In this document: positions 40,258 to 42,667 of the stretch, one piece after another
How positions within the stretch are numbered: position 1 is the stretch's first letter
How the letters are laid out: each line of letters starts with the position of its first letter
NCBI GenBank assembly: GCA_002720865.1
Contig: PBIO01000014.1
Coordinates: forward strand, 434,001 to 498,000
Reading direction: 5' to 3'
Origin: Halobacteriovorax sp.
GTDB taxonomy: Bacteria > Bdellovibrionota > Bacteriovoracia > Bacteriovoracales > Bacteriovoracaceae
Length of the DNA stretch: 64,000 nucleotides
Notes under the pieces: generated by a model
The model's input: the letters and a program-made list of their open reading frames with translations, nothing else
Told to the model about the DNA's origin: nothing
The model's database searches: none
Position numbers and translations under genes: made by a program

Positions 40258-40788
40258 ATGCCTCTTTATAGTTTTAAAGAACATAAGCCAGAAATTGGTG
40301 AGGGCTGTTTTATAGCTCCTTCAGCTGATGTCATTGGCCAGGTTAAACTAGGAGCAAACTCTAGTCTTTGGTATGGCGTAGTGGCTAGGGGTGATATCAA
40401 TCAAATCACTGTTGGAGAGAATACAAATATTCAAGACCTTACTATGCTTCATGTAATAGAAGATATTCCTCTTATTATTGGTTCAGGAGTGAGTGTGGGT
40501 CATAATGCCATTCTTCATGCCTGTACCGTGGAAGATAATTGCTTGATTGGAATGGGGGCCATTGTTTTAGATGGCGCTGTCATAGGAAAAAATTCTGTCG
40601 TTGCAGCAGGTTCCGTTGTTTCTCCTGGAAAAAAGTTTCCCGGAGGAAGCATGATTATGGGAAGCCCGGCAAAGGTTGTAAGAGAGCTCCGCCCTGAAGA
40701 GCTAAAGGGCTATGGTCAGCATTTTAATTCATACCTAGAAAGCAAGAATGAGTTTAATAATGAGGAGTTTGTAAAAAGGCTAGATTAA
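40258..40788 (+). CDS. Gamma-class carbonic anhydrase-like hexapeptide protein
   Basis: Left-handed beta-helix trimer of the YrdA/PaaY type, built of hexapeptide repeats. The three zinc-ligand histidines are at H65, H82 and H87, the same relative spacing as in Cam. Length 176 matches YrdA-like proteins. Carbonic anhydrase activity is shown for some relatives only. It follows cytochrome c by three bases; the stop overlaps the convergent DUF1499 gene by four. Confidence 0.88.
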   Translation: MPLYSFKEHKPEIGEGCFIAPSADVIGQVKLGANSSLWYGVVARGDINQITVGENTNIQDLTMLHVIEDIPLIIGSGVSVGHNAILHACTVEDNCLIGMGAIVLDGAVIGKNSVVAAGSVVSPGKKFPGGSMIMGSPAKVVRELRPEELKGYGQHFNSYLESKNEFNNEEFVKRLD

Positions 40789-41222
40789 AAGTCGTTCTGC
40801 TGAAATTTAAATCTGATATCCTCAATCCTCTTTTTATTCGCCCCTAAGTCTGAATGACCTTTTCTTGAGGCAGATCTAAAGTGAACTTTTTTATCAATTC
40901 CAAAATAAAACTCCACATCGTCAATAAATCTAAAAATAGCACTTGTGAATTCAGCATGGATATAATCTGGACTAGTGGTTATGATTTTAGCACTAGAGTT
41001 TTTTGTTAAAATACCAGTTATTTTTTGATGGGCCCTTTCTTTATTGGAAACGATCTCAATGGGCTCGAGGAAATGCTCCTCATCATGTTTAAAGCTTGTC
41101 ACGCAATTTGGCTTATCGGGACATTTACTTAGTTGGTTATCAATAACACCTAAGCCTTTAGGCATTGGGGCTGAACAAGAAACAGTAAGTATTGCTATAA
41201 TTAAAACTTTAAATAGGTCCAC
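40785..41222 (-). CDS. DUF1499 lipoprotein
   Basis: 145 residues. The N-terminal hydrophobic stretch ends in a lipobox-like LTVSC, so it is probably lipid-anchored. The mature part fits DUF1499: CPDKPNCVTS, then a two-strand alpha/beta core with YIHAEFTSAIFRFIDDVEFYF and a C-terminal NKKRIEDIRFKF. Function of the family is unknown. It overlaps the DUF2288 gene by 14 bases, suggesting one transcript. Confidence 0.8.
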   Translation of the reverse strand: MDLFKVLIIAILTVSCSAPMPKGLGVIDNQLSKCPDKPNCVTSFKHDEEHFLEPIEIVSNKERAHQKITGILTKNSSAKIITTSPDYIHAEFTSAIFRFIDDVEFYFGIDKKVHFRSASRKGHSDLGANKKRIEDIRFKFQQNDF

Positions 41223-41544
41223 GTTTTTTACGTCCTTTTTCGTCTACTTGAGCTAAGCAATAGGGTGGTATTTCTAGGAAATGAAAGATTCGTTCATCGG
41301 GAATTGATTTCCATTCCATAATACTTTCATTGCGAGGGGGGTTAATGGCCCCTACCTCTGCTAGTTTTTTAATTTTTTCATCTTTATCTAAAACAAGCAT
41401 AGCACCAATTTCAACCATATTAGTGTCGGGGGCACAGATAAGTAATTTTCCATTTTGGAAGTACTTAACAAGTTCATTCCAAGACCCATCAATGACTAAG
41501 GCCTCGAGTTCTTCAATTGTTTCTTGCTTTAAATCTTCAGACAT
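41209..41544 (-). CDS. DUF2288 family protein
   Basis: 111-residue cytoplasmic protein with the DUF2288 pattern: a helix ending in SWNELVKYFQNGKLLICAP, the strand NMVEIGAMLVLD, then a long helix and a C-terminal YCLAQ strand. No function is known for the family. It lies upstream of, and overlaps, the DUF1499 lipoprotein, and downstream of the histone-like gene on the same strand. Confidence 0.7.
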   Translation of the reverse strand: MSEDLKQETIEELEALVIDGSWNELVKYFQNGKLLICAPDTNMVEIGAMLVLDKDEKIKKLAEVGAINPPRNESIMEWKSIPDERIFHFLEIPPYCLAQVDEKGRKKRGPI

Positions 41545-41606
41545 TTTTTTCCAAATAAAAGGCCAAGGATAACCTTGGCCAATTTATAGATACTTTTAAT
41601 TAGTTT

Positions 41607-41792
41607 CTAGAAGTCACTTGGACGAACAGTCTTACGTCCGTTAGCTGAACAACGATCTTGAGCGTCTTTAACCATTGCGTGAACTCTTTCGTTTAGTTTT
41701 TCAAGAGCGTCCGAAGAAACGTTTAATCCACCACTTTTAAGGGCGTCTTTTGTTTTTGATCCAACTAATAGCATGTCTTTTTCTTTACTCAT
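41607..41792 (-). CDS. Bacterial histone (histone-fold DNA-binding protein)
   Basis: 61-residue single histone fold: short helix (about 7-19), long central helix (about 26-50), then the signature R53-K54-T55-V56 and a last short helix ending D60-F61. R53, T55 and D60 correspond to the conserved RxT...D set of archaeal and eukaryotic histones (HMfB R52, T54, D59). Bdellovibrio Bd0055 is the same length and type; published work shows it is an abundant chromatin protein that binds DNA as a dimer. AGGAGAAA precedes the ATG. The N-terminal tail is short, without the lysine tail of eukaryotes. DNA-binding mode here is inferred. Confidence 0.85.
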   Translation of the reverse strand: MSKEKDMLLVGSKTKDALKSGGLNVSSDALEKLNERVHAMVKDAQDRCSANGRKTVRPSDF

Positions 41793-42061
41793 TATTTTCT
41801 CCTGTTTGGTTTTGAATTATTAATTCAATTTATTCTTATTAAGAAAGTCCATGAAATCAACCGAATTCTGCCGTTAAATGGCGTTTTCTTGCATTCTGCG
41901 TAGTGCTAGCGCAAGGGGCTATTTTTTTGCGTATAAGTTTTCAGCGAGTTTACGAATATTTGACGCAGCTTTTAGATGTCTATGGCATTTTTAAGTCAGG
42001 TATTTGCAATTTAGAAGGACTAAAACTAGGCTAATGTGACCTAAAAATAACGGAGGATAAA

Positions 42062-42667
42062 ATGAAAATCGCAAAATATTTAATCACGGCAATCTCACTT
42101 GTCTCACTATCAGTTTTTGCTAATGGAACTAAAGATAAGCTTCCATCAAAAAAGAGTTACAGTGTTGATACAAAAAAGAGTTCTATTGTTTGGACAGGTA
42201 AAAAAGTTACAGGTCAACACACTGGTACTTTAAAGATAAAGAGTGGAACACTTAAGTATGATGGATCAAATCTAACAGGTGGAGAATTTGTTATTGATAT
42301 GACTTCTATCAATACAACAGATCTTTCTGGAGAGTGGAAAGCTAAATTAGATGGGCATTTAAAAAACGATGACTTCTTTGCAACAGACAAGCATAAGACG
42401 GCTAAATTAGTTATTAAGGATGCTCAATTTGGTAAAGGTGGGCATTGGGATGTAAATGGTGACTTAACTATTAAAGGAATTACAAAACCTATAATGTTCA
42501 AAGCTAACGTAAATAAGAAGGGAACAATGGTAATGGCAAGTGCTGATATTAAGTTTAACCGTCTTGATTACGGCGTTAAGTACAAGTCAGGGAAGTTCTT
42601 CAAGGACCTTGGAGATAAAATGATTTATGATGACGTAGAATTAAAAGTTAACTTAACTGCAAAATAA
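42062..42667 (+). CDS. YceI family protein
   Basis: Periplasmic lipocalin-like beta-barrel that binds isoprenoid or other lipid chains. A signal peptide to about residue 20 (FANG), then the family pattern: VDTKKSSIVWTGKKVTGQHTGT, MTSINTTDLSG, LDGHLKNDDFF, LTIKGITKPI and LDYGVKY. Length 201 is normal. CGGAGGA precedes the ATG. The 270-base gap upstream, shared with the divergent histone gene, holds promoters for both but no clear further gene. Confidence 0.9.
   Translation: MKIAKYLITAISLVSLSVFANGTKDKLPSKKSYSVDTKKSSIVWTGKKVTGQHTGTLKIKSGTLKYDGSNLTGGEFVIDMTSINTTDLSGEWKAKLDGHLKNDDFFATDKHKTAKLVIKDAQFGKGGHWDVNGDLTIKGITKPIMFKANVNKKGTMVMASADIKFNRLDYGVKYKSGKFFKDLGDKMIYDDVELKVNLTAK

Follow-up and report, generated by a model that had tools for sequence, protein, structure and literature searches.

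A probable FtF-type alpha3 histone gene in Halobacteriovorax, allied with Leptospira HLp rather than Bdellovibrio Bd0055

Among bacterial histones, only HBb, a dimer that bends DNA, and HLp, a tetramer that wraps it, have been worked out in both structure and function (PMC12701072). A small gene in the window analyzed here, a stretch of 64,000 nucleotides from a genome of the predatory bacterium Halobacteriovorax, raises the question of which of these two kinds of histone is encoded by a relative of Bdellovibrio. An earlier note had read the gene as a single histone fold of 61 codons with R53, K54, T55, and D60, positions known from archaeal histones and from Bd0055 of Bdellovibrio.

A conserved histone gene and its distribution

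The gene lies at 41607..41792 on the minus strand, a strand that the earlier note left unstated, and was identified from its ORF, a PDB match, an AlphaFold2 model, Foldseek, and dN/dS. It has an ATG start and 61 codons followed by TAG, and its product, MSKEKDMLLVGSKTKDALKSGGLNVSSDALEKLNERVHAMVKDAQDRCSANGRKTVRPSDF, carries all four residues at the positions that the earlier note gave. The Pfam model CBFD_NFYB_HMF (PF00808) matched the ORF with E=0.0022 and 18.7 bits, below the curated cut-off of 21.4, which is no argument against the fold because this model under-detects bacterial histones. Compared with the syntenic locus from the same genus (L039), the gene differs at 9 codons, each time synonymously (dN=0, dS=0.27), and is under purifying selection. 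A chance ORF is ruled out by the Pfam match, the PDB match to HLp, and the all-synonymous codon changes. We also rejected a phage origin, as there were zero matches in 50,697 phage records and PHROGs gave weak matches to families of unknown function, and a contaminant contig, as the contig (C14) is 1.41 Mb long and bears a ribosomal protein operon, and the nearest loci are syntenic with the same GC (0.376 in the window). This is a real, conserved histone gene with orthologues in the family; those with a name come from Halobacteriovorax and Bacteriovoracaceae genomes of the class Bacteriovoracia (Bdellovibrionota).

Histones occur in 1.86% of bacterial genomes (PMC10627809), and their description as rare is right for bacteria overall but not for this lineage, where they are common. 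A relative of the histone was found at E<=0.01 in 91 of 116 related genomes; 57 of the 129 genomes of the family match at E<=1e-8, and 21 of the 129 have a high-scoring window-type gene, counted at 81 bits or more, a cut that we drew between two groups of scores. Two window-type histones nested in the window clade, 81% and 77% identical to the window protein (L048:5455-5625 and L059:2353-2523, both on the plus strand), come from high-GC contigs (GC 0.69 and 0.66, respectively) of MAGs labelled Gemmatimonadota. Stray Bacteriovoracia DNA is disfavoured because of this difference in GC from the window, and a transfer between phyla is likely.

Affinity with HLp and with Bd0055

The likeness to a Bd0055-type histone was not sustained, as sequence, fold, tree, and face-to-face (FtF) residues all side with Leptospira HLp. 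A phmmer search of the PDB gave E=9.8e-13 for HLp and E=0.0025 for HBb/Bd0055, and the family profile gave 1.6e-20 and 8.6e-14, respectively. The AlphaFold2 monomer, predicted from 34 aligned sequences with a mean pLDDT of 90, has the three-helix histone fold, with helices at 11-19 and 27-50 and then only residues 58-60 helical, which is the truncated alpha3 of 3-4 C-terminal residues typical of FtF histones. It matches solved histones, bearing out the presence of one histone fold in this member of the Bdellovibrionota. Foldseek placed HLp first (9qt1/9qt0, E=7.3e-5, rmsd 1.0-1.1), followed by HTkC, also an FtF histone (E=4.6e-3), and HBb (E=5.3e-3, rmsd 0.9-1.0).

A tree built from 119 sequences puts the window clade (22 rows, support 98/89) inside a 92-row clade (99/99) to which HLp belongs but neither Bd0055 nor the ZZ histones do; the alignment has 66 columns, HLp and HTkC sit on long branches, and the bootstrap had not settled. 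The archaeal HTkC, on a very long branch, fell outside the HLp side, FtF histones as a whole do not form one clade in this tree, and we are unsure of the exact place of HLp.

Residues that distinguish the two kinds of histone agree with this grouping. R48 and N52 are present in FtF histones and missing in bacterial dimers (PMC11390915), and the window protein has both, as R47 and N51. The FtF profile residues R48, N52, R54, T56, and D61 (PMC11390915) correspond to R47, N51, R53, T55, and D60, present in 22/22 orthologues, all of which have position 61 as their last residue; of the 14 members of the Bd0055/ZZ clade, none has N51 and two have R47. The helix-1 lysine of FtF histones, K16 of the FtF profile (the K17 or K15 region of HLp), is matched at the level of the region by K13, K15, and K19, present in 22/22 orthologues. 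The RKTxxxxD motif of bacterial dimers is present as R53-K54-T55...D60, but it is common to other histones and so is not diagnostic, and the protein does not cluster by sequence with HBb in the PDB search, the profile, or the tree.

HLp of Leptospira perolatii, an FtF tetramer wrapping ~60 bp (PDB 9QT0-9QT2, PMC12701072), is the nearest solved protein by sequence and fold (about 48-49% identical). Contacts in its tetramer run from R49, S52, and N53 on one side to R55, T61, and F63 on the facing monomer (PMC12701072). We compared the dimer interface with HLp residue by residue, the AlphaFold2 models being single chains. The equivalents in the window protein, with numbers two lower, are R47, A50, N51, R53, S59, and F61, so that two interface residues are changed (S52 to A50 and T61 to S59). 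The two proteins share their length, the truncated alpha3, the R-x3-N-x-R tetramer residues, the RD clamp (R53-D60), a C-terminus that stops with Phe right after the clamp Asp, and the S/K/K/K helix-1 DNA contacts; the HLp contacts S14, K15, K17, K21, and T57 are retained as S12, K13, K15, K19, and T55. HLp T27 and G29 are not retained (V25 and S27), HLp A13 is G11, and where HLp reads NKRTT the window protein reads NGRKT, with a DNA-contact lysine, K54, that HLp lacks. The net charge of the window protein is only +3. Adjoining the tetramer residues is C48 (codon 48, 41649-41651), found in 21/22 window-type and 47/50 paralogue-type sequences, in contrast to T50 of HLp; a redox-sensitive contact is one conceivable role for it.

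The other known histones are more distant. HTkC of Thermococcus kodakarensis (PDB 9F2C, PMC11390915) shares the FtF fold, the lack of a tail, and the R and RKT positions, but is archaeal and about 35% identical and, in the part of its solved sequence that aligns, has E in place of N51. HBb/Bd0055 of Bdellovibrio bacteriovorus (PDB 8CMP, 8FVX, 9EZZ, 9F0E) shares the alpha3 fold, RKT...D, the helix-1 lysines, and the phylum, but is about 30% identical, bends DNA as a dimer, lacks equivalents of R47 and N51, continues past the clamp at its C-terminus, and belongs to a separate clade. ZZ histones such as Bd3044 have a histone fold and are found in relatives (L134, L135, and L138), but they have a zinc domain at the N-terminus and belong to the clade of Bd0055; a sequence search of this genome gave none at E<=0.01. 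The three proteins of these relatives combine a Cys-rich N-terminal domain with a Bd0055-like histone fold, resembling the Bd3044 type, and Pfam returned no match for L134, the one of them tested. Six further loci in relatives (L126, L127, L128, L129, L130, and L170) encode single proteins of ~126-149 aa with two tandem Bd0055-like histone folds; doublet histones are known in bacteria (PMC10627809), but these look like fused bacterial-dimer types. In L152 (genome G040), a histone bears a 36-residue Thr/Lys/Arg-rich N-terminal tail (MATKRKATTTKRRTPAKTTTRKTTTSARKATSTRRSK...), reminiscent of eukaryotic histone tails.

Expression signals and a second histone

A ribosome-binding site, AGGAG, is read just 5′ of the ATG (41800..41804, minus strand), and GGAG/AGGAG-type sites precede the ATG in nearly all orthologues. 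Alignment of the window with L039 and L040 points to a probable promoter at 41832..41860 on the minus strand, with TTGATT (41860-41855), a 17-nt spacer, and AAGAAT (41837-41832). The pattern TTGAWW-N16..18-WAGAAT, picked after inspection of some of the same sequences, occurs upstream of 16/23 orthologues, which are related sequences, against 0.06 expected; a generic promoter scan did not list the 41832..41860 site. A 17-bp palindrome at 41812-41828 is kept in L039 and not in L040. Directly 3′ of the gene is an intrinsic terminator (41561..41580, minus strand) with an 8-bp stem, a 4-nt loop, and then TTTTATTT; its folding z-score is -3.29, it is retained in L039 and L040, and a similar hairpin is visible 3′ of most orthologues.

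The neighbours named earlier, a divergent YceI gene and a DUF2288 gene, were both recovered by Pfam: the YceI-family gene is at 42062..42667 on the plus strand (PF04264, E=7.8e-33), and the DUF2288 gene is the next downstream on the minus strand (41209..41544, PF10052, E=4.6e-12), followed by a DUF1499 gene on the same strand (40785..41222, PF07386, E=1.2e-34). The order histone, DUF2288, DUF1499 is seen in at least nine orthologous loci, and DUF1499 stands beside the histone in many, whereas YceI is close to it in L039, L041, L042, L043, and L047 only. An operon with DUF2288 and DUF1499 was considered and set aside; although the order is kept, separate transcription is likelier because the window's histone gene and most of its orthologues are followed by a terminator. 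The genomic neighbours of HLp are SMC/MAP, unlike those found here.

We assessed codon usage on 144 kb of sequence, the window among them, taking 23 genes from the ribosomal protein region as the reference set. The 129 background genes have a mean CAI of 0.556; the histone reaches 0.726, which is above 98% of them and like that of ribosomal proteins (p=0.003 against an amino-acid-matched null), and this indirect sign suggests high expression. A literature query for a proteome of a close relative found none, the query being overly broad.

The genome also encodes a second histone, on contig C19, and three HU/IHF-type genes, one of which has a CAI of 0.737; all four are located outside the window and were therefore missed earlier. 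HLp, in contrast, is the sole histone of its genome, which is without HU. The paralogue is a 66-aa protein, 66% identical to the window protein, with the same predicted fold (pLDDT 88.7), a recognizable terminator hairpin of its own, and a CAI of 0.772 (p=0.0004). Its clade, sister to the window clade (50 rows, support 94/91), keeps N51 and R53 and has I for V56, I or V for F61, K for R47 in 23/50, and 2-5 extra C-terminal residues in 48/50. Because HLp R49 bonds the terminal Phe, the longer C-terminus could, by analogy, alter the tetramer contact. N-terminal tails of at least 12 residues, lysine/alanine-rich and about half K/R, are present in 27/50 members, and the paralogue of this genome has a short one (MAKKKAK). 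Among the 21 window-type genomes, 13 also have the paralogue type, 1 has a third type, and 7 have no second strong match; for genomes added by the 129-genome search, the assignments rest on score only. Halobacteriovorax marinus has the paralogue type (L072).

Proposed function and its alternatives

We consider it probable that the window protein is an abundant, nucleoid-associated FtF alpha3 histone that forms tetramers wrapping DNA non-specifically. Residue correspondence with HLp makes the tetramer likely and is the ground for the wrapping as well; we also infer the dimer, the abundance, and the cellular role. Two chains would pair via their long central helices into a histone dimer, and two dimers would join at both ends, R47, N51, and R53 of one with the C-terminal S59 and F61 of the other, closing the tetramer. 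DNA would run around the outside, contacted by S12, K13, K15, and K19 of helix 1 and by K54-T55 of loop 2, and ~60 bp may be wrapped irrespective of sequence, as happens with HLp. Its own promoter would supply the histone in large amounts, and it would help to compact the chromosome jointly with the second histone and the HU proteins. The two changed interface residues, the low net charge, and the uncertain place of HLp in the tree speak against this reading, and with three HU/IHF-type genes present the main chromatin protein could be another.

Separate dimers that bend DNA, as in Bd0055/HBb, have in their favour the shared phylum, the common alpha3 fold, the RKT...D motif, a K54 as in HBb, and the nearly equal superposition of the HBb structures. 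We nevertheless regard such dimers as very unlikely, as HLp is ahead by many orders of magnitude in both the sequence and the profile search, the protein retains the R47 and N51 that HBb-type histones are without (PMC11390915), and the tree puts it away from HBb with strong support. Residues, scores, and tree thus rule out a Bd0055-type dimer as first choice, and DNA bending by a dimer is not the best model, because the protein groups with HLp and carries FtF residues missing in the Bd0055 clade. A local or regulatory protein with a histone fold, comparable to NF-Y-type transcription factors and distinct from a general chromatin protein, seems to us highly improbable; Pfam does match it weakly to the family of NF-Y and archaeal histones, and HU/IHF-type genes are present, but the protein has no additional domain, its basic contact residues are the ones used for backbone binding in HLp, the codon usage is that of a highly expressed gene, and close homologues are abundant nucleoid proteins (PMC10627809).

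Mixed complexes are a different matter, in which the window histone and its paralogue would form hetero-dimers or hetero-tetramers and the C-terminus or tail of the paralogue would change or limit assembly. The two types coexist in this genome and in 13 of the 21 window-type genomes, both histones have ribosomal-protein-like codon usage, and the paralogue clade combines the retained N51 and R53 with its extra C-terminal residues and its frequent K for R47. We think this possible but unlikely, since a third of the window-type genomes (7/21) have no strong second match and many genomes have the paralogue only; each type can exist alone, because genomes with just one type occur.

Returning to the FtF tetramer, class Bacteriovoracia is a published home of FtF histones (PMC11390915), and our literature search for histones of this class found that survey only. 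The histone described here is a further example of an already described kind, because FtF histones of Bacteriovoracia have been published (PMC11390915), and the gene confirms and refines the published distribution without adding a new class. Positively charged tails in bacterial FtF histones have also been published (PMC11390915), and we found no discussion of tailless and C-terminally extended histones occurring together in the literature searched, supplementary files being outside the search. We offer as speculation, and with considerable doubt, a two-histone chromatin in Bacteriovoracia, with a tailless FtF core and a C-extended, often tailed variant in mixed tetramers, the ratio of the two histones setting the degree of DNA wrapping; if true, it would give bacteria a counterpart of histone variants and tails. 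With two histones of the other type and HU/IHF-type proteins besides, this neighbour of Bdellovibrio would allow both modes of action to be compared within one phylum. One could then also ask how two co-occurring histones divide the work and why tailless and tailed forms are retained side by side in one genome.
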